The position numbers and the translations under genes are program-made. A stretch of 64,000 nt of DNA from Phragmitibacter flavus (GTDB lineage: Bacteria; Verrucomicrobiota; Verrucomicrobiia; Verrucomicrobiales; Verrucomicrobiaceae), in contig NZ_VAUV01000005.1 in NCBI RefSeq assembly GCF_005780165.1, positions 248,001 to 312,000 on the forward strand, read 5' to 3'. Shown piece by piece: positions 5,452-60,029 of this stretch. Each line of letters starts with the position of its first letter. Within the stretch, counting starts at the first letter, position 1. A model generated the notes under the pieces. The model was not told where the DNA came from, made no database searches, and saw only the letters and a program-made list of their open reading frames with translations.

Positions 5452-7518
5452 ATGGCGATCTTAAATCAGATCAGGGTGTTTAGTTCGGACCTGGATGGAA
5501 CTTTGGTGGGCAAACCGGACTCGAGTGCGGATTTCACCTGCACCTGGAAAGGGCTTGGCGAATCGAGGCCACTGCTGGTCTACAATACGGGCCGGTTGCT
5601 TTCGGATGCACGAAGGACGGTGAAGGAGGCGCAGCTGCCGGAGCCCGATTATTACATTACTGGAGTCGGGACGGTCATCTATGAGGTGAAGGCGAAGATG
5701 GTGCTGCATGAGTTCAGCTCGATTTTGTCGGAGGAGTGGGATCGGGACCGGGTGGAGGAGATTGTGAGTGGATTTGGCAAATTGAAGCTGGAGAAGCAGC
5801 CGGAGCATTTTCAGCATGACTGGAAGAGCAGCTGGTTCTGGCGGGATGCGACACCGGAGGATTTGGAGGGACTGACGGAGGCCTTGCGCGAGGAGGGGTT
5901 GAGTGTGCAGGTGGTGTATTCCTCGGCGCGGGATTTGGACGTGTTGCCAAAACCGGCCAACAAGGGAAATTCGCTCCGTTGGCTTTGTCGAAAGCTGGGC
6001 GTAAAACCTGCGGAGTTGCTGGTGGCGGGGGACACGGGAAATGACATTTCGATGTTCCAACTTCCTGGCGTGCGGGGGATTGTGGTGGAGAACGCGGAAC
6101 CGGAGTTGTTGGGTGCGGTGCTGAACACGGATGCATATGTGGCGAAAGGCAGTTGTGCGGCGGGAGTGCTGGCGGGCCTGCTGCATTTTGAGGTGATCGA
6201 TGCCGTGGTGGCGTGTGATGTGCCGTTGGAAGGGCAGGCGCATGATCCCGAAATTGTTCGGTTGTTTGATGTGGCGGCGGATACGCAAGGGGATGAGACG
6301 GCATTTTTGAAATTGGCGTATTCGAAGGCACTTGAGTCGTTGGATCGTTGCGTGACGCCGGTGGGATTCAGTGCGTGTTCCATTGGGGACAATGACGTGA
6401 CGGGGACGGATGAGAACTACAATTCGGTGTGGGGCCGCGATGGTTCGATGGCGATTGTGGGTAGCCTCGCGGTGCCGGGGGACCGGTATCGGGATTGCCA
6501 GAGGGCGACGTTGCGGACGCTGTTGACGCATCTGGCTCCATCGGGTCAGGTGCCGGCGAATGTGCACATCAGGACGGGGATTCCCGATTATTCCGGAGTG
6601 GGCGGGATTGCGGCGATCGACAGCGGCATGTGGGCGATCATTGCGCTGTTTGAGTTTGTGGCGAAGACGGACGAGATGAAATTCCTGCGGGAGTTTCGTG
6701 AGGCGGCGTCGCGGATCATGCTTTGGCTGGAGGCGCATGACAGCAACCAGGACGGATTGCTGGAAATTCCGGAGGCGGGAGATTGGATGGATTTGTTCAA
6801 TCGGAGTTACAACGTGCTTTACGATGAGGTGCTTTGGTATCGGGCAACGATTGCTTATGGACGGATTCACGAGTTGCTGGGGGACCGGGACACGGCTTCG
6901 ACGTATCTGCTGAGGGCGGAGCGGGTGAAGAGGGCGATTCTAAAGCGCTTCTGGCCAAGCACGAGTGCGCCGGTGGCGGAGTCGGGGGCGAGCTTTGCAG
7001 AGGTGCAGCGGGCGATTGGGGATTCGCGTTATTTGCTGGCGCAGGTGACGCCGTTTTCATTCGACTGGCGTTGCGATGTGATCGCGAATGTGATGGCGTT
7101 TTTGAACAATGTGATCGATGTGAAGCGGGCAAAAACGGTGTTCCGATATGTGTGGGGGGTGGGCGCTAACATGCCCTATCCGGTGCGCAATTTGTATCCG
7201 GTGGTGCATGCGGGCGATCCGGACTGGCGTAGTTATTACACGGTCAACTTGTTGAACCTGCCGCATCATTATCACAACGGTGGGATCTGGGGCTGGTGTG
7301 GGGGACATTGGGTGAGATTCATTCACCGATTGGGATTGCGTGACATCGCGCGACAGGAGTTGGTGAAGCTGGCGGAGTTGAACCGGCAGGGGGTGACCTT
7401 CGAATGGGAGTTCAATGAATGGTGCCATGGTGAAACGGGCAGGCCGATGGGCAAGGCGTTTCAGGCGTGGTCGGCTTCGGAGTTTTTGGCGGCCTATCAT
7501 GAGGTGATGGACGATTAA
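5452..7518 (+). CDS. Sucrose-phosphate phosphatase-like HAD domain fused to an (alpha/alpha)6 glycosidase
   Basis: A two-domain protein of 688 residues. Residues about 8-250 form a HAD phosphatase of the sucrose-6-phosphate phosphatase type: DLDGTLVG with catalytic D13 and D15, a conserved Lys in KPANKG, and GDTGNDISMF. Residues about 280-685 resemble glycogen-debranching (GDE_C) or GH100-like glycosidases, with VWGRD, an IDSGMW block, GDWMD and EVLWY. The SPS gene starts 24 bp later, so the pair probably makes sucrose. The glycosidase half may hydrolyse sucrose or an alpha-glucan. The substrate of this half is uncertain. Confidence 0.8.
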   Translation: MAILNQIRVFSSDLDGTLVGKPDSSADFTCTWKGLGESRPLLVYNTGRLLSDARRTVKEAQLPEPDYYITGVGTVIYEVKAKMVLHEFSSILSEEWDRDRVEEIVSGFGKLKLEKQPEHFQHDWKSSWFWRDATPEDLEGLTEALREEGLSVQVVYSSARDLDVLPKPANKGNSLRWLCRKLGVKPAELLVAGDTGNDISMFQLPGVRGIVVENAEPELLGAVLNTDAYVAKGSCAAGVLAGLLHFEVIDAVVACDVPLEGQAHDPEIVRLFDVAADTQGDETAFLKLAYSKALESLDRCVTPVGFSACSIGDNDVTGTDENYNSVWGRDGSMAIVGSLAVPGDRYRDCQRATLRTLLTHLAPSGQVPANVHIRTGIPDYSGVGGIAAIDSGMWAIIALFEFVAKTDEMKFLREFREAASRIMLWLEAHDSNQDGLLEIPEAGDWMDLFNRSYNVLYDEVLWYRATIAYGRIHELLGDRDTASTYLLRAERVKRAILKRFWPSTSAPVAESGASFAEVQRAIGDSRYLLAQVTPFSFDWRCDVIANVMAFLNNVIDVKRAKTVFRYVWGVGANMPYPVRNLYPVVHAGDPDWRSYYTVNLLNLPHHYHNGGIWGWCGGHWVRFIHRLGLRDIARQELVKLAELNRQGVTFEWEFNEWCHGETGRPMGKAFQAWSASEFLAAYHEVMDD

Positions 7519-7542
7519 CTGGATGAATTTAAGTAATTAGTT

Positions 7543-9738
7543 TTGGGCAGACCACTTGATATTTTGCACTTCTCTTTGCACGGATTGATCCGTGGTCAGG
7601 AGATGGAGTTGGGGCGTGATCCGGACACGGGCGGCCAGTGTTTGTATGTGCTGGAGCTGGTGAAGGCTTTGTCGCGACATCCGGATGTGAGGCGGGTGAC
7701 CTTGGTGACGAGGAGGGTGTCAGATCCAAAGGTGTCGACGGACTATGCAAAACCGCATGAGGATCTGGGGCATGGGGCGGAGATCCGGCGCATTGATGGA
7801 GGGCCGAAGCTTTACCGGCGCAAGGAGGTGCTTTGGCGGCATCTGGATGCGATGATCGACAACACTTTGGCGTGGTTGCGTCGGGAGCGCCGGATGCCGG
7901 ATTTGATTCATGCGCATTATGGGGATGCAGGTTACGTGGGCAGGCAGGTGGCGGCAGTGCTGGGGTGTCCGTTTGTTTTTACGGGACATTCGTTGGGACG
8001 GGTGAAGCGGATGAAGCTGATGGAGAGCGGGATGGATGGGGCGGAGATTGAGAAGCGCTACAATTTGAATGTGCGGATTGAGTCGGAGGAGATGAGTCTC
8101 GATGCGGCTTCGTTTGTGGTGACCAGCACGCATCAGGAGATCGAGGAGCAGTATGCGATGTATGATCAGTATGCCGCCGACCGCATGCGGGTGATTCCGC
8201 CGGGGGTGGATCTGTCGCGTTTTGACGGAGAAGGAGATGCGGAGGTGGTCGCGTCAGTAGCGGCGAAGCTCGAGAGGTTTTTGTTGGATCCGCAGAAACC
8301 GGCGGTGCTGGCGATTGCGCGGGCAGATGAACGGAAAAATTTGGCGGGTTTGGTGCGGGCTTTTGGAGGAAATGAGTGGCTGAGGGAGAATGCGAATTTG
8401 GTGATTGTGGGGGGGAATCGGAAATTGATCGAGGATCTGGCACCGGGACCGCGCAAGGTGTGGATGGAGCTGTTGAGGTTGATCGATGACTGCGATTTGC
8501 GCGGCAATGTGGCGATTCCGAAAACGCATGGGGCAGCCGAAGTGGCGGGCTTTTTCCGGTGGGCGGCTGAGCGGGGCGGGGTGTTTGTGAATCCGGCGTT
8601 TACCGAACCGTTTGGGTTGACCTTGCTGGAGGCCTCGGCGGCGGGGTTGCCGTTGGTGGCGACGCATGATGGCGGTCCGCGGGATATTTTGGCGAATTGT
8701 GAAAACGGCGTTTTGGTTGATCCTTTTGACCCGGTGGCGATTGGCAAGGCGATTGAGGGGATTTTAAGCGAGCCAACCCATCAGGCGGCATTGGCTGCAC
8801 AAGGGGCGAAGGCGGTGCGGGAGTTTTATGGATGGTCGAGCCATGTGAACCGTTACCTGCGCGAGATGAGGAAGGTTTTGCCGATGATGAACCTGCCCGT
8901 GGTGCCAGTGGTGGAGCGCGTGGGACTGGCGGAATGTGAGCGGTGGATTGTGATGGATTTGCCGTCGGCTTTGGAAGGGGAGTCAGAGGAGATGATGGGA
9001 CGGTTGAGAGGCGTGTTTGAGGATGGGACGATCGAATTGGGGATTGCGACGGGGATGTCGTATGAGCGGGCGATGGGAATGATCGAAAGGCTGGGGATGC
9101 CGTTACCGTCATTTGTGGTTTCGAGATTGGGCGCGCGGATTGATTATCCGCGTCCGGGGGCGGTGGCGAGGGATGAGGTTTGGCAGAGGCAGATTTCCGT
9201 GAACTGGCGCCGGGAAGAAGTGGTGAAGGTGTTGGAGGGGCTGCACGGTCTGGAATTGCAACCCGAGGCGGAACAGGATGCCTTGAAGGTGTCGTTTTAT
9301 CGGGATGATCGGTCGGGACCGCGCCGGTTGGAGGTGCAGAGGAAGCTGCGTGAGGCGGGGATCGCGGCGAAGGTGCTGGTGACGGCGGGGCGCTATCTGG
9401 ATGTGGTGCCGGTGCGCTCGGGCAAGGATGTGGCGTTGCGCTATTTGATGCACAAATGGGGGATGGATGCGTCGAGCATTTTGTATTTTGCCACGTTGGG
9501 AAGTGATGCCGCAGTGATGCGCGGAAGGATGCTCGCAGTGGTGGCGGGAAATAGTGATCCGCAGTTGGAGATATTAACGGAGCGGGTGCGGCTTCGATAC
9601 AGTGAACAAACCGGGTTGGCAGGTTTGTTTGAAGGGATTGAGGCGTATGGATTTCTCGAAGGGAAGAAGCCGCCGGGGCCGGATGACACGTTGTCTTCGG
9701 ATCATGAAACGGTATCGGTAGAAGAGTTGCTGCCCTGA
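7543..9738 (+). CDS. Sucrose-phosphate synthase (GT4) with C-terminal degenerate phosphatase domain
   Basis: A GT4 glycosyltransferase expected to make sucrose-6-phosphate from UDP-glucose (or ADP-glucose) and fructose-6-phosphate. The N-terminus has LHGLIRG and DTGGQCLYVLEL. The mid-region has FTGHSLGRVK, and the donor site is EPFGLTLLEASAAGLP. The start used is TTG at 7543, because the conserved sequence begins immediately after it. Residues about 460-720 form a HAD-like domain in which the nucleophile motif reads MDLPSALEG and the acidic motif reads LGSDAAVM. It is therefore probably inactive, while the gene upstream carries the intact phosphatase. Confidence 0.88.
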   Translation: MGRPLDILHFSLHGLIRGQEMELGRDPDTGGQCLYVLELVKALSRHPDVRRVTLVTRRVSDPKVSTDYAKPHEDLGHGAEIRRIDGGPKLYRRKEVLWRHLDAMIDNTLAWLRRERRMPDLIHAHYGDAGYVGRQVAAVLGCPFVFTGHSLGRVKRMKLMESGMDGAEIEKRYNLNVRIESEEMSLDAASFVVTSTHQEIEEQYAMYDQYAADRMRVIPPGVDLSRFDGEGDAEVVASVAAKLERFLLDPQKPAVLAIARADERKNLAGLVRAFGGNEWLRENANLVIVGGNRKLIEDLAPGPRKVWMELLRLIDDCDLRGNVAIPKTHGAAEVAGFFRWAAERGGVFVNPAFTEPFGLTLLEASAAGLPLVATHDGGPRDILANCENGVLVDPFDPVAIGKAIEGILSEPTHQAALAAQGAKAVREFYGWSSHVNRYLREMRKVLPMMNLPVVPVVERVGLAECERWIVMDLPSALEGESEEMMGRLRGVFEDGTIELGIATGMSYERAMGMIERLGMPLPSFVVSRLGARIDYPRPGAVARDEVWQRQISVNWRREEVVKVLEGLHGLELQPEAEQDALKVSFYRDDRSGPRRLEVQRKLREAGIAAKVLVTAGRYLDVVPVRSGKDVALRYLMHKWGMDASSILYFATLGSDAAVMRGRMLAVVAGNSDPQLEILTERVRLRYSEQTGLAGLFEGIEAYGFLEGKKPPGPDDTLSSDHETVSVEELLP

Positions 9739-29801: not shown

Positions 29802-29840
29802 GCGCTAGTAGCTCAGTGGATAGAGCAGCGGATTTCTAAT
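29802..29840 (+). pseudogene. 5' half of tRNA-Arg (anticodon UCU), cut in the anticodon loop
   Basis: Acceptor strand GCGCTAG, D arm GCTC/GAGC, anticodon 5' strand GCGGA and loop TTTCTAA are perfect tRNA-Arg sequence. The expected 3' strand TCCGC is then replaced by TTGAG, and no T arm follows in the next 300 bp. G+C and gene style change exactly here. It is best read as the left attachment junction of an integrated element. The 3' half is not in the window. Confidence 0.85.
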
Positions 29841-29860
29841 TGAGAAATGGCGTTTTGCGC

Positions 29861-29942
29861 AGCTTTGCATGGTTTTGCAATTGTTGCCTAAGATACTCGT
29901 AATGAGTGGTTTGCAATGAAAAGCTCTTTGCATGGCTTTGCA
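29861..29942. repeat. TTTGCATGG(T/C)TTTGCA direct repeats next to the attachment junction
   Basis: Two near-identical 16-mers at about 29864-29879 and 29927-29941, 63 bp apart, with degenerate TTTGCAT fragments to 30105. A further inverted pair (TTTCACG/CGTGAAA) lies at about 29958-29989. The place and spacing suit integrase arm-type sites. No gene is seen between 29841 and 30164. Confidence 0.6.
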
Positions 29943-30035
29943 CTGATTTACGGAGATTTTCACGCCGACCGTAGAAAATGACCGTGAAATTTTCGGTGAA
30001 GAGCGAAGACGTTTTTATGCATCAGAAATTTGCTT

Positions 30036-30041
30036 TATAAT
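30036..30041 (+). promoter_or_regulatory. Possible -10 box (TATAAT) of the two-gene edge module
   Basis: A perfect TATAAT lies 124 bp before the ATG at 30165. A weak AT-rich -35 (TTTTAT) sits 17 bp upstream. The call rests mainly on the -10 hexamer. Confidence 0.4.
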
Positions 30042-30164
30042 AGTGCGGCCTCAATTTCGCTTCTTTGCATCCAAAGACAAACTTTGAACGTTTGATTATT
30101 TGCATCCCGGACAAAATTCCTTTTGCCAACTTCCACACATCCTTCAGCGATCAAAGAACATCAT

Positions 30165-31460
30165 ATGAAACCATCAGCTGCCATAACAGTCCCTAAAGGG
30201 GCAAACTTGGCCGTCCGCTGCCACGATGTTGTCAGCACCTTAGGCACTAAGCAAGTAGCCGATTTTGACCAACTTGTTATAATTGGACTTGCTGTCAGAC
30301 TCGCATTGCATCTCCAAAGCGCATCATCAGTGCCCTATGACTTGTTGAAGCAAATTGCTCTGCATCTACTGCATATCCCGCCAACTGTGCTACCCGCAGT
30401 CGTGAATTGCTTAGCGGATGCAGAATATTTGAGGGTTGATAAACAGGGCCAAACAATCCGCGCCGTGGTTCCTACAGTGCCATTTTTCGAAGATCTCTTC
30501 GGTGATATGGGAGCTTATGCTGGCAACCTACAGATGTCTGAACCAGAGCAAATCACACTTGCGATGATCGACCGTCTTGCTAAGAGCCCTACTGATCGTT
30601 CCGTATATTTTGATATGGGCGCTGAAAAAAAACTAGTGCAACGTATGCTTGATGTGGGTAGTCAAGGGGGGTATGTCATTGAAAAGCGTTCGCGAGGAAA
30701 AGACATCCTTTTGTCTCCTGTTTATTTTCCAGAGAATTATGAGGCATTTGCAGATCTCACTGCTGCCAAAGGCGGAGGAGTCGTGTCGGGCGCTATCGAA
30801 AAGCTTTCTAGAAACCAGGGTTGGCCGTTGAATTTAATTAGCAAAAATTCTGCCGTTGGCGATGAACACCTTAGCCAGGACGAGCTTACTGTTATAAAGG
30901 CTATTGCAACTGAAGGCTTTACCTCTCCGCCGTCTATTAAAACAACACATTCTGGTCAAAATTTCTTTCTCTTTACACCAAAGCCGGGGCTAACCACCAT
31001 AACACCTTCGAAAAGGCATGTTTTTGAGGCCGCTATGGCGCTCGTATCGGCGGTTCGACAAGGCCAATTGCTTCCTGAGGAATATGCAATAAGAAATCCC
31101 GTCGCATTGCTTAGTGCATTGCTTGATCGGAAACGTCTGCGTGCAAATACAGAAGCGTTTGAGCAATACAAATGCCTTGCCACGCTCCGTGTGGGGCGCC
31201 TCAAGCCAGCAGGTGGTAGTTGGTTTAATTTTGAGCTTATTGAAAATCCAGATAACCTCGAGGCAGTAAAGATGGCGATACAACTGGTTCGCGGCGAGCA
31301 AGTATCGCACGCACCTGATCCCGAGATCCTAATGGCCTTTCACAAAGGGCAGGAGTTTACAGATTCGTTGCTTGGACGCAGGTTATTGGCGGAACAGGAA
31401 ATATTGAATATTGATCCTGGGATGCAAGATGAGATTGATAATTATCTTCTTCAAATATGA
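30165..31460 (+). CDS. Unrecognised protein, possible winged-helix N-terminal region; first gene of two-gene edge module
   Basis: A 431-residue soluble protein I cannot assign to a family. Residues about 30-110 read like a winged-helix domain: helices (DQLVIIGLAVRLALHL, YDLLKQIALHLLHIP, TVLPAVVNCLADAEYL) then a beta wing (RVDKQGQTIRAVVPTVPFF). A helical second half includes an LLSALLDRKRLRANTEAFEQY block. No catalytic motif is evident. Its TGA overlaps the next ATG (ATGA), so the two are coupled. The ATG at 30165 is preferred to an in-frame TTG at 30123. It is the first gene inside the element, where cargo such as defence genes often sits. Confidence 0.75.
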   Translation: MKPSAAITVPKGANLAVRCHDVVSTLGTKQVADFDQLVIIGLAVRLALHLQSASSVPYDLLKQIALHLLHIPPTVLPAVVNCLADAEYLRVDKQGQTIRAVVPTVPFFEDLFGDMGAYAGNLQMSEPEQITLAMIDRLAKSPTDRSVYFDMGAEKKLVQRMLDVGSQGGYVIEKRSRGKDILLSPVYFPENYEAFADLTAAKGGGVVSGAIEKLSRNQGWPLNLISKNSAVGDEHLSQDELTVIKAIATEGFTSPPSIKTTHSGQNFFLFTPKPGLTTITPSKRHVFEAAMALVSAVRQGQLLPEEYAIRNPVALLSALLDRKRLRANTEAFEQYKCLATLRVGRLKPAGGSWFNFELIENPDNLEAVKMAIQLVRGEQVSHAPDPEILMAFHKGQEFTDSLLGRRLLAEQEILNIDPGMQDEIDNYLLQI

Positions 31461-32671
31461 TGCGAGACTCTTCATTAAAAGAAATGTTGTTTAAGCATTA
31501 CTGGAAACAGCGGTGCTTTGTGCAACCCGAGGTTGAAATATACAACATCAATGGTTCCCTGGGTGCAAAAAAGCTCATAACAGATGTTGATGTTTTTGTA
31601 TTGCAACCATCTGCCACAACGTTGTCGTTCGAACGCCTTCTGGGCGATTGCAAGACATTAAAAGGTCAGTCCGCAATCAATCGAGCATTTTGGCTGTCTG
31701 GATTAAGAGGTTACCTGAAAGGTAAAGGCGGAGTGGTGTTATTAGACATCCCCAACATTGAATCAGACCACAAATTGGCGGCTAATGCTATCGACGTTAG
31801 AGTAATGAATGCAAAGGACTTTGCCGTTTATGATAAATCAATAAATTATCCTGAGGGTTCTGAAGGCGTTAACGCAAGTATTCAAGACGTCTTCGAATTG
31901 AGAAATTACTCGAAAAAACATCCTAAACTAACTCCTCTGACCAATCATCTTTATCGTGACGTATGGAAAGAGACGAGTTTCGGAGAGATAATGAGGCATT
32001 CGCTGGCGCAAACCCGCAAAGTATCAAGTGAGTTTGACCCAAACAAGAGAGAACACAGCGCGTTGATTTGTGATGCTGCCGCAATTTTCTCAGTCGGGTT
32101 GGCTGAATGCTGTGGAACGATTTTCCATCAATATTTACATCCTACCGAAAAAGCATTATTATCCGACTCACTCAAGGTTCTTATTTGGGGCGGCAGGGAA
32201 CAATATGACTTAGCGAGTCAGCTGCGCGCGAAATTGCTTGCAGTGAGTGGCAAAGCTCAGCCGGAAAGTGAAGACTCTTTAGAATTGCCTCAGTGGAATC
32301 TTTTGGTTCAGCTCGTGCGGCACATTCTAGATAATCCGAAAGCAGCATTTTATATTCCTTGGTTTTTACGGCAGTTGTCTTTCGACTTGATGAAAGGTCG
32401 AGAGTTTTCAGTGTCTCTACCTACAGAAGATATAGTTACCGCCAAGTATGCTATGTTAACATTTGAATACTTTTGCAAAGCCTGCAAGCTGCCGAGTGAA
32501 TTTAAGGAAAATGTGGGGGGCATCTTATTACGTCTTCAAACAGATTTAGCACTTACAAGAGATGGAAAAGTGTCTAAGCCCATAGCCCCTACCAGAGTTC
32601 TGCGATCTGAAGATGTGGTCTCTAATCCTGTTGGTGGTGAAGTGCGATCACAACCAGAGCTAGGTGTTTGA
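31457..32671 (+). CDS. Putative PD-(D/E)xK-like nuclease; second gene of two-gene edge module
   Basis: A 404-residue protein with no family I can name. Near the N-terminus the pattern PEVEI, then LITDVDVFVLQP, then LLGDCKTLKG fits the PD-(D/E)xK nuclease core: an acidic residue in helix A, Asp after a beta strand, then D-x-K (Asp-Cys-Lys). The strand after it (GGVVLLDIPN) also fits. The rest is largely helical with no further motif. It overlaps the upstream gene by 4 bp, and the two look like one functional unit. The nuclease call is inference from a short pattern. Confidence 0.65.
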   Translation: MMRDSSLKEMLFKHYWKQRCFVQPEVEIYNINGSLGAKKLITDVDVFVLQPSATTLSFERLLGDCKTLKGQSAINRAFWLSGLRGYLKGKGGVVLLDIPNIESDHKLAANAIDVRVMNAKDFAVYDKSINYPEGSEGVNASIQDVFELRNYSKKHPKLTPLTNHLYRDVWKETSFGEIMRHSLAQTRKVSSEFDPNKREHSALICDAAAIFSVGLAECCGTIFHQYLHPTEKALLSDSLKVLIWGGREQYDLASQLRAKLLAVSGKAQPESEDSLELPQWNLLVQLVRHILDNPKAAFYIPWFLRQLSFDLMKGREFSVSLPTEDIVTAKYAMLTFEYFCKACKLPSEFKENVGGILLRLQTDLALTRDGKVSKPIAPTRVLRSEDVVSNPVGGEVRSQPELGV

Positions 32672-32754: not shown

Positions 32755-33138
32755 TTATACTAAGTATCCCTCTTTATGCAGCCAAACAGTCAGCGCTTCG
32801 GCCACAATATCCTGCTGTGTGAAAGGGTGCAGCCTTTGAATCTTGCGTTGCATAGATGCGGTCAGTAATGCCGTGCTTATCTCTGCGGAAATACGTGTAT
32901 TCAGGGACATCACTCCCGGCATTGCGAATTGTGGATTCAAAGCGGCTGGTGCAGCTTGGACGGGTGGCGGGGAAACGGGTTGCTGTTGGATTGCAGTTTG
33001 AGCCATGGGGGATTCCTCCTTCCTTTTGGTTGCTTTAGGTGTCGGTTTATCTTTCTTTTTCGGTGCGGATTTCCCTGGATTCAGGAATGCTTCCTCTTCC
33101 GGTGTCAGGCCATCGCCAAGTGTCCTGCGCTTAACCAC
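32755..33138 (-). CDS. Small ParB-like partner of ParA (possible ribbon-helix-helix)
   Basis: A 127-residue protein. The first 70 residues are basic and Pro/Gln/Ala-rich (GKSAPKKKDKPTPKATKRKEE). The last 50 (LNTRISAEISTALLTASMQRKIQR, then QQDIVAEALTVWLHKEG) look like a strand plus two helices of a ribbon-helix-helix DNA binder. It overlaps the end of parA by 8 bp. That arrangement is typical of centromere-binding partners of small ParA ATPases. Confidence 0.7.
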   Translation of the reverse strand: MVKRRTLGDGLTPEEEAFLNPGKSAPKKKDKPTPKATKRKEESPMAQTAIQQQPVSPPPVQAAPAALNPQFAMPGVMSLNTRISAEISTALLTASMQRKIQRLHPFTQQDIVAEALTVWLHKEGYLV

Positions 33139-34058: not shown

Positions 34059-34249
34059 AGTCGCTACTCCCCCGTGCCTAGGTCGGTGCTACCCCGATAG
34101 CAAAGTCGTTACCACCACTATAGTTGGTCGCTACTCCCCCGATAGGGTCGTTAGCCCCCCGATAAAAGGTCGCTGCCCCCACGATACCACGTTAATTCAA
34201 TAGCCTTTCATGTCCCTTAATGCTGAAAAGGTCGCTACTCCCCCGATAT
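34059..34249 (+). other. Plasmid-type replication origin: seven iterons upstream of repA
   Basis: Seven copies of a roughly 20-bp motif, consensus GGTCGCTACTCCCCCGATAG, start at 34059, 34081, 34104, 34126, 34146, 34168 and 34230. The first six are spaced 20-23 bp, about two helical turns. They end 34 bp before the RepA start codon. The 498-bp gap between parA and repA thus holds the hairpins, an AT-rich stretch (33985-34020) and the iterons. This is the standard layout of an iteron-controlled origin. Confidence 0.88.
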
Positions 34250-34282: not shown

Positions 34283-35455
34283 ATGGGCAGGAAGATCGAG
34301 GGCGGAATCAAAGAATATCAAGACCTTGTGCGGTTTACGGCTTCCTCTGCTGATGTTTCTGCGAAAGACCAGATCGACCTCATGTCCCGTAATTGGTTTA
34401 GTTTAACCGCTGGCAGAACTGAAGCCATCCAACATGAATACGTGGATTCCCGCACTGGATTGACTGAAACGGTGCGCATTACTGGTGGTGCTGAACATGG
34501 CGGGATTGCCACTATCTATGATCAAGATCTCCTGATTTTTGCTATCTCACAATGGATTGATGCCAAGCGCATGGGGGTTCCGGTTTCCAGACGCATCCAT
34601 TTCAAACCATATCAGTTTTTCGCATGGTTGAACATTTCGCCTCAGGGCACTGCTTACACACGGCTCAAGGATGCGCTGAACCGTCTAAAGATGACGAGTA
34701 TCCAGACGACTGTTCGCTCACAGGTTGGCAAACGGACGCGAAACCGTATCAAGCAATTTTCGTGGATCTCCGAATGGGAAATCACTGAAGAGGAAGGCGA
34801 AGTTCGCGGCGTCGAAGTGGTTCTGGCCGAATGGCTGTTTGAAAGCATTCAGGATTTCCATGTGCTGACGCTCGATAAACGATATTTTGAGATTCCGGGT
34901 GGAGTCGAACGCTGGCTATACCTCTATGCGAGGAAGGCAACCGGTGGGCCGAATGGCATGTGGAAAGAGACCTTCAAGAGCCTTTACCAGAAATCCGCAT
35001 CACAGCAGGCATACAAGCACTATGCAAGTGCCCTCAGAAAGCTGGTTGAAAAGAATGACCTTCCGGGCATTCGCCTTGAAAAGGTCCGTTCCAGTCAGGG
35101 GAAAGACATGCTGTTAATGGAGCGCACTGAAAAGCGCGTTGCGCCAGAAAACAAAAGCGTTCCTCAGATTGAAAGCCAGTTGTCACTCATCGAGCGCACT
35201 CCTCTTGAAGAGGCGTGGGAGAATGTATTGGAAATCATGCGTAAGCATATCGGAGCCGACCAGACCAAAGCATGGCTTGAAAAACTTCAATTGGTGAGCC
35301 TGGAGGGCGATATTGTTACCTACAAAGCCCCTTCAAAGTTCATAGCTGAATGGGTGGAAAACAATTTCAAACACAAGCTTGAAGCGGCCTGGGAGTCCAT
35401 TGGACAGACCGTGAGTGCAATTCGGATTGAGGCCAAAGGAAAGGCTGCTGCTTAA
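34283..35455 (+). CDS. repA: Replication initiator RepA with C-terminal DnaA domain I-like region
   Basis: A 390-residue plasmid initiator. Residues about 30-290 resemble the RPA/RepA initiator family (NWFSLTAGRTE, IFAISQWIDAKRMG, RLKDALNRLKMTSIQTTVR, FEIPGGVERWLYLYARKA), with two winged-helix-like parts expected to bind iterons. Residues about 308-375 (LEEAWENVLEIMRKHIGADQTKAWLEKLQLV, then YKAPSKFIAEWVENNF) match the N-terminal domain I of DnaA. In DnaA that domain contacts helicase and self-associates. The iterons lie directly upstream, so autoregulation is likely. Confidence 0.85.
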   Translation: MGRKIEGGIKEYQDLVRFTASSADVSAKDQIDLMSRNWFSLTAGRTEAIQHEYVDSRTGLTETVRITGGAEHGGIATIYDQDLLIFAISQWIDAKRMGVPVSRRIHFKPYQFFAWLNISPQGTAYTRLKDALNRLKMTSIQTTVRSQVGKRTRNRIKQFSWISEWEITEEEGEVRGVEVVLAEWLFESIQDFHVLTLDKRYFEIPGGVERWLYLYARKATGGPNGMWKETFKSLYQKSASQQAYKHYASALRKLVEKNDLPGIRLEKVRSSQGKDMLLMERTEKRVAPENKSVPQIESQLSLIERTPLEEAWENVLEIMRKHIGADQTKAWLEKLQLVSLEGDIVTYKAPSKFIAEWVENNFKHKLEAAWESIGQTVSAIRIEAKGKAAA

Positions 35456-56530: not shown

Positions 56531-59029
56531 TTAAACAGTTTGTTGGAGCATAATCGTGTTCTCGATAACGGTTTCGATTTCGCTGTAAATATCAACACTT
56601 TCCTTTGCGCACTCAATCGACACGATCAATGAGTAGTTCATTATCGCCTCCGCTCGGTCATGGCTGGATCGCGTGCGCCACCATCCTGTAACGGGATAGA
56701 CCGCAATGTGTTTCATGCTGATTAAATCAGCGGCAGAGCCCTCCCACATATCTGAGTGAATCGAGCCCTTGAAGCATTCCTGGCCGAGTAGCCAACCGTC
56801 GGTTGAGCCTCTGACGTGTTGTCTGTCATCTGTAATAAATTCGTCTGATGCGATTTTGTTTACATCGGCGTTCAAATCTTCGGCTGCCTGGCCAGGAGCC
56901 GACACTTTAAACCTGAGAGCACAACTTGCGTAGCGGAACTGTGATGTGTAACCACGATTGCCTGGGTTGGGTTCGATGAAGTAGGACAGCGTGACGCGCA
57001 TTCTTACTTTTTCAGTCGGATTGGTAGTCAGGGTATTTGCTGGCCAAGGCAGACTGTGGAGATGCATTTTGTTGAAGAGAGTCTTTTCACCTTCAATCTT
57101 AAAGGGCTGAATTTGACATTCAGAAATCAGGGTTGCGCTATTTTTAGAGCATTCAATGGCGCGACGAAGATTTGGCACGCCATAGCCAACCGTTCGCAAG
57201 AGAAAGGTAGCCCTATCGGATTTCAGCCGACTTTTTTCTCGTGGGATTGTTGTTTCCATCGCATCTGTCCAATGAGCGGAATGAATCATCAATCCCCGGA
57301 TGGTCTCAGGTGAGTAATCGGGATATTCCGCCATCAGGATGGCCGCCATTCTGGCAGCCAAAGCTGTGGCTGGACTCGTTCCGGATGTGGTGCCGAACAC
57401 GCCCTCATTGTATTGAGCGTGGGTGGATAGTAACATCAGTTCGTCGAGATTCAGGGTAGAATGGTTAGCCGCTTGATAGCCTGCGTTTCCGCCTTCAAAA
57501 ACGATGTCAGGTTTATTTGGCCAATGGTTAGCCCATTCAATGGACGTGCTGCTGACTGGTGAGAGCGCACCACGAATTGCAAGAGGAGTATACGAAGAAG
57601 CGAGTCGAATCGTCTGTAACTCAGTATACGCGCCAACACAAAGTGCATTCCATGACTGTCCTGGATTGCGAACTGTGTGTTGGTAATTAGACGCCGGATA
57701 GTCTTTCCATAAATCTTGTGGAATGTTTCCTGCGCTTAAACACAAAAGTCGACGCAACTCCCCTTCATTGTCAACTCCCGCTGCTAAATTATCCATTTGC
57801 GAGGACCATGATGTGGGAATCGCTTGATTGGGTTCTGACATCGTGGTGGTGATGCACCAGATTCTTCTCCGATCGCGTCTGCGTGCCTCAGATAGAGAAA
57901 CACCCTGCGCTGTATAGTAGCCAGCGAGTTTTTCATCAGTATTTTTTTGAAGAGGCGGCGGCACTATTTTTACGCCCTCCACATTTACAGGCATTTCAAC
58001 GCGTTGGGTTCCTGAAAGTATTCCAGCTAAGTCGCCATACAGACACAATCCGGCCATAAGAGTTCCGTGATTGTCATCATCGCCTGAGCTCCAGCTTAGT
58101 TCAATGGTCATGTTATCCTCTTCTCCGATGAGCTTTTCGAGCATCGGATGGCCACGATTGATTCCAGTGTCCAGAACACTGATCCATGGTGCATTAGGAT
58201 CTGAATCTGAGATTCGCACCAGCAGATCATCTCCATATTCAATTTGCTCGGATGGAAGCATGCCGGAAAATACGTCAGCGTAGTCACGACCTCGTCGAAT
58301 CTCAGAAATGCAGTTGAGCACTGCAACATCCCTTGCAAAATCACTTCCACGACCGAACGCTGCAAGAATCGTATGTTCAGGTAATTTGATCCTACCTTTC
58401 CCAACGCGAATACCTTGTTGCTCAGCGAGGATTACAAATTGTTTTAGAATGACCTCGCGTTCGTTTTCGGAAGCACCGCGTCGCAACCATATTTCTAACC
58501 ATAGCTCGTCGTTTGCAGGAAAGGGTTCCGTTTCTGTCCATAGTTCCTTGGCTGCGGCTAAGTGGACACGTTCAATAGCTTCAACGAGCGGTCGATATAG
58601 GGGTTTGCCTCTGTGTTTCTGAGTCAGATAACTATTTACTATTTCATCGAGGACCGAGAGTTTTCCGTCGGGCACAAACCAGGTCTGATTGTTCAGCAGC
58701 GTATGGCCAGATTGAACTGTTCGCTCATTCAGCAATTCCCACCCATTTTCAATAAGCCGATCTACCGGAATAAAAGTATTTGGCGCACTCTCAAGTTCTA
58801 CAGATATTCCCCGAGCCTTGATAGATTCATTTCCTTCCCAGCTTTGTGCAAGCACCTGATAGCTAGCGTCTATGGATTGGATCTGTCGATCAAGTGCCCT
58901 CCCATGCCCCGCGAAATTGTGACGAGTGGGTGTAGTAGGGGAATTACCTCTTTTCTTGGACTTGTAATCCTTTTGAGAATAAAATCGTTCAACGCGTAGG
59001 TGGCGCTTTCTTTGTTCTTCTTGCGCCAT
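56531..59029 (-). CDS. ietS: Subtilisin-like serine protease IetS
   Basis: An 832-residue S8 protease. Triad: Asp near 286 (WISVLDTGINRGHP), His near 321 (DDDNHGTLMAG), Ser near 550 (TTSGTSPATALAARM). There is no signal peptide, so it is cytoplasmic. Its start overlaps the AAA ATPase gene by 41 bp. A protease-ATPase pair of this kind is the IetAS system, first described as a plasmid-stability toxin-antitoxin on a Ti plasmid and later reported as anti-phage. The assignment is by gene pair and domain match. Confidence 0.88.
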   Translation of the reverse strand: MAQEEQRKRHLRVERFYSQKDYKSKKRGNSPTTPTRHNFAGHGRALDRQIQSIDASYQVLAQSWEGNESIKARGISVELESAPNTFIPVDRLIENGWELLNERTVQSGHTLLNNQTWFVPDGKLSVLDEIVNSYLTQKHRGKPLYRPLVEAIERVHLAAAKELWTETEPFPANDELWLEIWLRRGASENEREVILKQFVILAEQQGIRVGKGRIKLPEHTILAAFGRGSDFARDVAVLNCISEIRRGRDYADVFSGMLPSEQIEYGDDLLVRISDSDPNAPWISVLDTGINRGHPMLEKLIGEEDNMTIELSWSSGDDDNHGTLMAGLCLYGDLAGILSGTQRVEMPVNVEGVKIVPPPLQKNTDEKLAGYYTAQGVSLSEARRRDRRRIWCITTTMSEPNQAIPTSWSSQMDNLAAGVDNEGELRRLLCLSAGNIPQDLWKDYPASNYQHTVRNPGQSWNALCVGAYTELQTIRLASSYTPLAIRGALSPVSSTSIEWANHWPNKPDIVFEGGNAGYQAANHSTLNLDELMLLSTHAQYNEGVFGTTSGTSPATALAARMAAILMAEYPDYSPETIRGLMIHSAHWTDAMETTIPREKSRLKSDRATFLLRTVGYGVPNLRRAIECSKNSATLISECQIQPFKIEGEKTLFNKMHLHSLPWPANTLTTNPTEKVRMRVTLSYFIEPNPGNRGYTSQFRYASCALRFKVSAPGQAAEDLNADVNKIASDEFITDDRQHVRGSTDGWLLGQECFKGSIHSDMWEGSAADLISMKHIAVYPVTGWWRTRSSHDRAEAIMNYSLIVSIECAKESVDIYSEIETVIENTIMLQQTV

Positions 59030-60029
59030 GACTTTCTATGGGTTTGCGTTTGGTTCGTTTGACACGCTCATCAATAGCCTTCAGCAGAAGTGCCGTTGTA
59101 AGCTTCGGTTTTTGTTCAATTAGTCTTTCTTTGACGGCATCATCAGCAGCTCTAACGGCCTCAGCGAGATTCAAGGTTGCAGAAGCATCGAGGATTTTTT
59201 TCCAATTTATAGCAGAACGCATTTCATTAGCAAGTCGTTGCTCAAAAACTGCCTTCAGCTCATCCTGAGATGGGAGTGTGTATTCAATAATGTCATCAAA
59301 ACGTCGGAAGAGCGCGTCGTCCAGCGACTCAGGATGGTTTGATGCAGCGATAATCAGACTATGCCCGCGCATACCCTCTAGGAAAACAAGGAAACTGTTG
59401 AGAACACGACGCATTTCTGCCACATCAGACTGGGCACCACGCGAAAGACCCAATGAATCGAATTCGTCAAAAAGAAATACCGCACGATGTGATTCGATTG
59501 CGTCGAAGACAATGCGAAGTTTAGAGGCCGTTTCGCCCAAGAATTTGGTGAAAAGCGCATCAAGCCGAAGCACAAAGAGCGGAAGTCCTAGCTCGTGAGC
59601 GAGAGCATGGGCTGTCATTGTTTTTCCGCATCCGGGAGGTCCGAGAAGTAACAAACGCTGGCGTGGCCTTAATCCGTGTTCGCGAAGTTTGTTAAATTGT
59701 TGCTGTTCCTTCACGACTCGCTTGAGACGGCGACTGAGGTCGGGTGAGAGCACCAATTGCTGCAAAGCAACCGTCGGCTGGATCAATTCGAGAAGTCCGG
59801 CCAGCTCCCCTTGCGGCCGTGCAAAATTTATAGAATTTGTTTTTGTCTGTGAAGGGAATTGCGCAATTCGTGGAGCTTTTGAGATGAGCTCTTGAATCTG
59901 TTTGGCAAGATCATCATGCCCTTTCCTAGCCTCATTCGCCGCAACCTGTAGGGCGGCTGTGCGAAAGCGTTCATCATCTCCAGCCACATGACTTTTGAGC
60001 AATTCGAGAATTTGACGCGCTGTGGCCAT
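58989..60029 (-). CDS. ietA: AAA ATPase IetA
   Basis: 346 residues. Walker A LLGPPGCGKT near residue 132, Walker B FLFDEFDS near 188, sensor SNHPESLDDALFRRFDD with the Arg finger. The N-terminal helical part (about 1-60) has no named domain. In IetAS the ATPase counteracts the protease (antitoxin-like role). It lies first in the operon. Confidence 0.9.
   Translation of the reverse strand: MATARQILELLKSHVAGDDERFRTAALQVAANEARKGHDDLAKQIQELISKAPRIAQFPSQTKTNSINFARPQGELAGLLELIQPTVALQQLVLSPDLSRRLKRVVKEQQQFNKLREHGLRPRQRLLLLGPPGCGKTMTAHALAHELGLPLFVLRLDALFTKFLGETASKLRIVFDAIESHRAVFLFDEFDSLGLSRGAQSDVAEMRRVLNSFLVFLEGMRGHSLIIAASNHPESLDDALFRRFDDIIEYTLPSQDELKAVFEQRLANEMRSAINWKKILDASATLNLAEAVRAADDAVKERLIEQKPKLTTALLLKAIDERVKRTKRKPIESHGARRTKKAPPTR

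Follow-up and report, generated by a model that had tools for sequence, protein, structure and literature searches.

Septu, Hachiman, and Gabija are two-gene operons with a nuclease, located in defence islands, in which the nuclease is paired with an ATPase or a helicase. Shedu (SduA) is a single-gene system. Nucleases of the PD-(D/E)xK fold are not confined to defence, as they also serve repair and recombination. We analysed a 64,000-nucleotide stretch of Phragmitibacter flavus contig NZ_VAUV01000005.1 (hereafter the window) carrying two overlapping genes, named gene 1 and gene 2. Unlike Septu, Hachiman, and Gabija, neither gene of this pair matches an NTPase family. We consider it fairly probable that the pair forms one operon and constitutes an undescribed two-protein module of anti-phage or anti-element defence carried as cargo by mobile elements; its activity, its target, and the interaction of its proteins are inferred.

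Gene Organization and Host Element

The first-pass annotation of this DNA had reported two genes overlapping by four bases, ATGA, between an attachment junction and a plasmid backbone. The coordinates in table 1 confirm the overlap, at 31457–31460; an alternative, longer start of gene 1 is possible at the TTG at 30123. The placement is confirmed as well: no other gene lies between the pair and the left end of an element of ~42.7 kb integrated in tRNA-Arg(TCT), the pair being enclosed by the two copies of the tRNA-derived repeat, and a backbone of ParA-like, Rep-like, coupling protein-like, and relaxase-like genes (named by reading translations) starts at 32755. The second, exact copy of the repeat lies beyond the window, at positions 320502–320540 of the contig (C5; window coordinate 72502–72540), where ARAGORN identified an intact tRNA-Arg(TCT) with an integrase-like gene adjoining. 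The gene adjoining the right end of the element is tyrosine-recombinase-like, again by reading its translation. The G+C content is 45% in the pair, 51% in the remaining element within the window, and 58% in the chromosome to the left, which fits recent cargo. Imperfect direct repeats of ~22 bp at 34060–34248, directly before the Rep-like gene at 34283, look like iterons.

Table 1. Features of the P. flavus Locus (Window Coordinates)
Feature	Position	Strand	Description
Left attachment site	29802..29840	+	39-bp direct repeat, 5' half of tRNA-Arg(TCT)
Leader with seven TTTGCA motifs	29841..30164	+	Between attachment site and gene 1
Gene 1	30165..31460	+	431-aa protein; ATG start; predicted tandem winged helices
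R177-G178 codons, gene 1	30693..30698	+	Predicted tip of second wing
Gene 2	31457..32671	+	404-aa protein; ATG start; predicted PD-(D/E)xK domain and all-helical C-terminal domain
E25 codon, gene 2	31529..31531	+	Invariant in group I
D43-x-D45 codons, gene 2	31583..31591	+	Invariant in both groups
D64-C65-K66 codons, gene 2	31646..31654	+	(D/E)xK motif; from the alignment of members

The seven same-strand TTTGCA motifs of the leader span 29864–30104, with two pairs at a spacing of 10 bp. They form the densest such cluster in the window, and seven copies were reached in none of 200 shuffles. As nothing comparable lies ahead of 34 relatives (no 6-mer occurs there more than four times), we did not retain the array as the operator of the gene pair and regard it as particular to the P. 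flavus element. The leader is probably part of the attachment region, and its motifs are possibly integrase or excisionase binding sites. Promoter and terminator scans of the locus yielded nothing above chance, and Rfam gave no match there.

A second, known defence system, IetAS, is carried by the same element (window 56531–60029; IetS-like subtilase and IetA-like ATPase with PADLOC E values of 1e-32 and 5e-70, respectively). At window coordinates ~61275–65904 (L072:276–4905), the element also carries, side by side, a SoFic-like Fic gene, a DUF262 plus HNH-looking gene (identified by reading and without a PADLOC match), and a type II methylase match.

Gene 2 Encodes a Predicted Nuclease

The AlphaFold2 model of the gene 2 product (mean pLDDT 86.9, pTM 0.85) comprises a nuclease core (residues ~1–130) and a helical C-terminal domain (~142–368). 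The order of helices (H) and strands (E) in the core, H5–17, E21–29, E40–51, E58–66, H73–86, and E91–96, is the alpha-beta-beta-beta-alpha-beta core of the PD-(D/E)xK superfamily. E25, D43/D45, and D64-C-K66 are located on consecutive strands of the model, and both hallmarks of the superfamily, acidic residues on the second strand and (D/E)xK on the third, are present. A D...DxK nuclease pattern had been recognized from the letters alone; it corresponds to D43-x-D45 and D64-C-K66, which, together with E25, are invariant in 28 of 28 aligned members.

The best VIA-align matches of the model were AF1548 (Z 8.7, rmsd 3.2, 114 aligned), VC1899 (Z 8.3, rmsd 2.6, 116 aligned), and Can2 (Z 7.8, rmsd 2.9, 114 aligned), all spanning residues ~3–131, followed by Cdn1 (Z 7.6), EcoT38I (7.5), EndoMS (6.6), and SduA (5.3). 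Z values of 7–8 are common by chance; here, the upper part of the list consists of one fold, PD-(D/E)xK-type nucleases or structural-genomics proteins aligned with such nucleases, and the motif is in place. No Foldseek match had an E value under 0.001. The model and the fold comparison thus bear out the earlier guess of a PD-(D/E)xK-like protein: gene 2 is predicted to encode a nuclease of this superfamily, and metal-dependent cleavage is inferred.

Gene 1 Encodes Predicted Tandem Winged Helices

For gene 1, the AlphaFold2 model (pLDDT 82.3, pTM 0.72) shows, by its DSSP order, three helices followed by a beta wing, repeated in tandem, with predicted winged helices at residues ~36–103, 126–183, 204–269, and 281–358. 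Domains 1 and 2 were matched to solved winged helices; for domains 3 and 4, the assignment is based only on the succession of secondary-structure elements. The helix and beta-wing reading, initially made for the N-terminus, therefore holds and extends along most of the protein. Tandem winged-helix subunits of RNA polymerase III, such as RPC62, lead the Foldseek list, where no match was under E 0.001. Single winged helices of gene 1 match Fur, polymerase III subunits, and other proteins at Z 6–8, for instance 9fso_F with Z 7.5 and an rmsd of 1.3 over 60 residues. A Pfam search of 27 rows identified neither an enzyme family nor a recognised NTPase domain. The wing tips of many winged helices touch DNA. 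The R177-G178 residues at one predicted tip are invariant in 27 of 27 aligned rows and are not kept in the actinobacterial rows. We predict that the gene 1 product is a chain of winged helices, and infer from this model that it may bind DNA.

These two folds could also be those of a restriction system devoid of methylase, either modification dependent (type IV-like) or structure dependent, with gene 1 as the specificity subunit. Can2/Card1, EndoMS, and MspJI/AspBHI-type restriction folds are similar to the nuclease domain of gene 2. The pair has no methylase of its own, as the conserved unit consists of two genes and includes no cognate methyltransferase, and among the matches listed only two of 108 neighbouring ORFs hit type I methylase models. 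However, gene 1 is without a family match, and no known reader of modified bases is therefore seen. We consider this proposal unlikely; it is a special case of a defence module and overlaps with that reading.

Strict Pairing in a Patchy Distribution

Relatives of the pair closest to the P. flavus genes form group I. Its 36 distinct loci, which comprise the P. flavus locus, plasmids, a viral contig, and genomes, all consist of a gene 1 and a gene 2 that are adjacent and on the same strand (longest-ORF starts). The six named phyla are Bacillota, Bacteroidota, Cyanobacteriota, Pseudomonadota, Thermodesulfobacteriota, and Actinomycetota. In a pattern scan for gene 1 over a genome collection of 84,980 species, 27 loci were found, and in each of the 27 gene 2 lies downstream on the same strand. 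By tblastn against plasmids, six records contained gene 2 and ten gene 1, one of the latter by a short chance match; the nine credible gene 1 records all hold an adjacent gene 2 (seven inspected, two by coordinates). In actinobacterial plasmids, gene 2 is too divergent to be detected by tblastn, yet it is the next gene after gene 1. A search for co-occurring homologues had been suggested as a check of the pair, with homologues occurring apart as a refuting outcome; among the loci examined no gene was without its partner. As the two genes were never found apart, they presumably act together.

Among the 39 loci examined, 38 hold the pair, two of these being copies that were left out of the distinct counts (L015 is identical to L014, and the L012 match is the same as that of L011). 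The last one, L003 (genome G175), is a gene 2 match of 55 residues (E 6.4e-5) with neither partner nor motif, and was attributed to chance. A Paraburkholderia plasmid match to gene 1 (62 residues, E 0.4) was dropped for the same reason. In the 36 distinct loci, the intergenic gap lies between −59 and +31 bp and is exactly −4 in 13 of them; as these lengths derive from longest-ORF starts, some overlaps are overstated. The relatives' proteins measure ~350–470 aa (longest ORF). Identical 15,260-bp stretches containing the pair occur 83 kb apart on one Jeotgalibacillus contig (L014 and L015), through either a recent duplication or an assembly artefact. In G234, a genome of the same order as P. flavus, the pair is succeeded by another overlapping gene (L002:699–1523), the third of the series, which matches GIY-YIG weakly (Pfam E 0.0018, short of the cut-off).

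The distribution is patchy: the pair is present in roughly 1% or less of species, across at least six phyla. Within the phylum of P. flavus, gene 2 matched three of 387 genomes, including the P. flavus locus itself and one chance match; in Bacteroidota, it matched one of 296, namely the genome chosen as the centre of the sample. A tblastn search of gene 2 against 50,697 phage records returned nothing for either group. Only two IMG/VR contigs carry gene 1, the scan with the group II gene 1 (see below) found no viral contig, and the fold matches obtained from BFVD were partial, many of them involving nuclease-type proteins and none being under E 0.001. A phage origin of the pair was not retained.

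Selection and Co-divergence

Five close pairs have a dN/dS of ~0.03–0.15 wherever dS was estimable (it was saturated in three of ten comparisons), indicating purifying selection on these pairs. The existence of relatives, together with a dN well below dS in close pairs, argues that genes 1 and 2 are real. Distances of the two genes are correlated over 27 loci (r 0.92), a value reached in none of 2,000 permutations; linkage alone would also give such a correlation. Gammaproteobacterial rows of the gene 1 tree enclose two cyanobacterial ones, and the gammaproteobacterial locus L019 pairs with the alphaproteobacterial L021. These placements suggest transfer, without proving it. The P. flavus row is on a long branch and its placement is unsure.

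Strict adjacency, with the gene of DNA-binding type first, a nuclease-type second product, and a frequent occurrence on plasmids and integrated elements would also fit a toxin–antitoxin or addiction module stabilising the element, in which gene 2 would be the nuclease toxin and gene 1 the DNA-binding antitoxin and repressor. Yet the two proteins are large (431 and 404 aa), compared with the small paired proteins of type II modules, and gene 1 is the better conserved of the two (median identity of 45% vs. 32% for gene 2), unlike a small fast-evolving antitoxin. Upstream of the relatives there is no repeated operator-like motif, and the neighbourhoods are rich in defence genes. In addition, at one of the 36 loci (L036, Halomonas sp. 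SpR1, 6995–8280), gene 1 is frameshifted and gene 2 intact. This would be lethal if gene 1 were the sole brake on a toxin, and is mild evidence that gene 2 by itself is not lethal; the frameshift may be an assembly error. We judge such a module quite unlikely.

A Divergent Second Group

Six loci of divergent pairs, two of them in Escherichia coli islands, make up group II. When profiles were compared with a sample of 378 Pseudomonadota genomes, centred on one selected positive, gene 2 matched four and gene 1 two. The extra, weak gene 2 matches (G681 and G620) are each preceded by a gene of 416 or 417 aa, with an overlap of four or one bases. According to hhalign, the gene 1 families of groups I and II are related with a probability of 94.8% (E 4.9e-8, 325 columns), a profile comparison that identifies the group II partner gene as homologous to gene 1. 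The same layout is repeated in Mesorhizobium and Rubrobacter plasmids and in the two E. coli islands. One E. coli pair has the accessions WP_000377565 and WP_000723546. In gene 2, T42, D43, D45, D64, K66, R76, and G82 are found in 13 of 13 rows from both groups. Group II lacks a conserved E25, for which an acidic residue of the first helix may stand in.

Matches were found in 22 of 5,426 E. coli genomes, each listed match covering 38% of the query; two were inspected. In E. coli W2-5, the pair follows an integrase gene beside tRNA-Pro, according to the same logic of position as in the P. flavus element. In an E. coli island (L046:2685–7707), His-Xaa-Ser peptide maturation genes and a TIGR04141 gene lie beside the group II pair.

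Neighbourhoods Rich in Defence Genes

At a PADLOC threshold of E 1e-15, 108 ORFs neighbouring the pair matched 202 models, against 16 models (HerA, phospholipase effector, and mad8) for 129 control ORFs. The control consisted of matched stretches of the same contigs for 13 of the 27 genome loci, compared once; the L030/L057 region pair, the copy L015, and 12 further loci, most of them close to contig ends or on short contigs, were left out. As PADLOC models are redundant, protein counts differ less than model counts. Neighbours include, besides type I restriction genes, Septu PtuA/PtuB (L038), pAgo with SIR2 and AbiLi/AbiLii (L024), LmuB, which is Lamassu-like (L031), an NsnB-like gene (L037), NERD-UvrD (L018), PDC-S02 (L022), PDC-S11 (L032), and a PD-T4-6-like kinase (L014). 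From these named cases, which were hand-picked, at least eight of the 13 loci have a PADLOC-matched neighbour. Ten neighbouring ORFs chosen after reading their translations, hence not at random, all matched PADLOC. Some relatives, such as L025 and L029, lie beside ordinary metabolic genes, as read from translations. The first-pass annotation had called the pair a candidate for a new sensor–nuclease system; these neighbourhoods support a defence reading, and the sensor role and the nuclease activity remain inferences.

The pair might instead serve the element itself, by acting in its transfer or integration or by keeping out related elements, with gene 2 as a TnsA-like or repair-type nuclease. 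It is near an attachment site or an integrase-like gene in P. flavus, L011, and L047, less closely in L049, and adjoins a MobF relaxase gene in L007. Nevertheless, no common backbone is obvious across the phage-like contig, the plasmids of three phyla, and the chromosomal islands. The annotated neighbourhoods contain no constant transposition partner, TnsB/TnsC not being seen beside gene 2 in those of plasmids (annotations only, without a profile search). As many relatives are also surrounded by defence genes, a role limited to the element seems to us improbable.

A Proposed Mode of Action

A nuclease with a full motif, a partner of nucleic-acid-binding type, and defence neighbourhoods are best read as a defence module in which gene 1 would be responsible for recognition and gene 2 for cleavage. 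Most likely, the gene 1 product, which has no recognised enzyme domain, would bind nucleic acid and recognise a feature of the invading phage or plasmid. The gene 2 product would probably remain inactive, or undirected, as long as gene 1 has not met its target, and would then cut the DNA of the invader or, as an abortive response, that of the cell. That gene 1 binds DNA, that the two proteins interact physically, and that DNA is cut are inferences, as are the target and the outcome. A more specific proposal is conceivable, though we hold it only tentatively and do not think it likely: a winged-helix chain without ATPase, cyclase, or helicase would read a DNA or transcription structure specific to invasion and license a dedicated nuclease. 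This would be a new class of immunity, ancient, split into two groups, and with a pairing that has outlasted easy sequence recognition. The RNA polymerase III winged-helix subunits located near melted DNA provide a model for such a reading.

If the pair is defensive, it represents a two-gene immune system absent from the defence catalogue tested (PADLOC), and the group II copies in E. coli islands make it directly testable in that species. As the pair apparently lacks an NTPase, one may ask how it would recognise non-self. Two protein families that had no annotation also receive a structural assignment and, as a pair, a common function that can be tested.

Relation to Known Families and Systems

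Neither protein matched any Pfam or PADLOC family even at E 10, and NCBIfam gave a single chance match for the pair. A Pfam scan of 28 gene 2 and 27 gene 1 rows gave only scattered weak matches. With PADLOC-DB 2.0.0, the 28 gene 2 members (the gene 1 alignment was left out) matched five families, by one or two members each and with a best E value of 0.0011. Profiles of either gene found no credible solved structure among PDB sequences. Isolated matches, each produced by only one or two members, such as those to frataxin (E 0.16), DUF1765, and Specificity_I, were set aside. The clear match to a known non-nuclease family that would have refuted the proposal was not found in Pfam, NCBIfam, PADLOC, or PDB sequences. 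The pair is made of parts of known folds and, by sequence, belongs to no catalogued system tested. The accessions of six plasmid relatives and six group II members are not mentioned in the literature searched, and keyword searches, which gave access to only part of the literature, revealed no paper on the gene pair. DefensePredictor is reported to have yielded 14 PD-(D/E)XK proteins (PMC13092281). Group II proteins might be among these 14, a possibility that is not excluded.

At the level of structure, several known proteins are comparable with one or the other gene. Shedu (SduA) shares the PD-(D/E)xK fold of gene 2, which has no PADLOC match to it. The nuclease fold of AF1548 (1y88) and NucS/EndoMS is also like that of gene 2, and we know of no paired winged-helix partner for either. 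Like gene 1, RPC62 and a second RNA polymerase III subunit, presumably of RPC34/39 type, are winged-helix chains and provide its best Foldseek rows. RPC62-type proteins are eukaryotic polymerase subunits for which we found no sequence relation to gene 1, and the likeness between the models likely reflects a shared architecture only. For Card1/Can2 and VC1899, the likeness is that of the PD-(D/E)xK domain (Z ~6–8 over ~115 residues). The CARF domain of Card1/Can2 is not covered by the gene 2 alignments (mainly residues 1–153) and has no Pfam match in gene 2. No CRISPR locus was noticed near the pair, an observation made without a dedicated search. Compared with these proteins, the pair is distinguished by an N-terminal position of the predicted nuclease domain, a helical C-terminal domain, and a partner predicted to consist of tandem winged helices.
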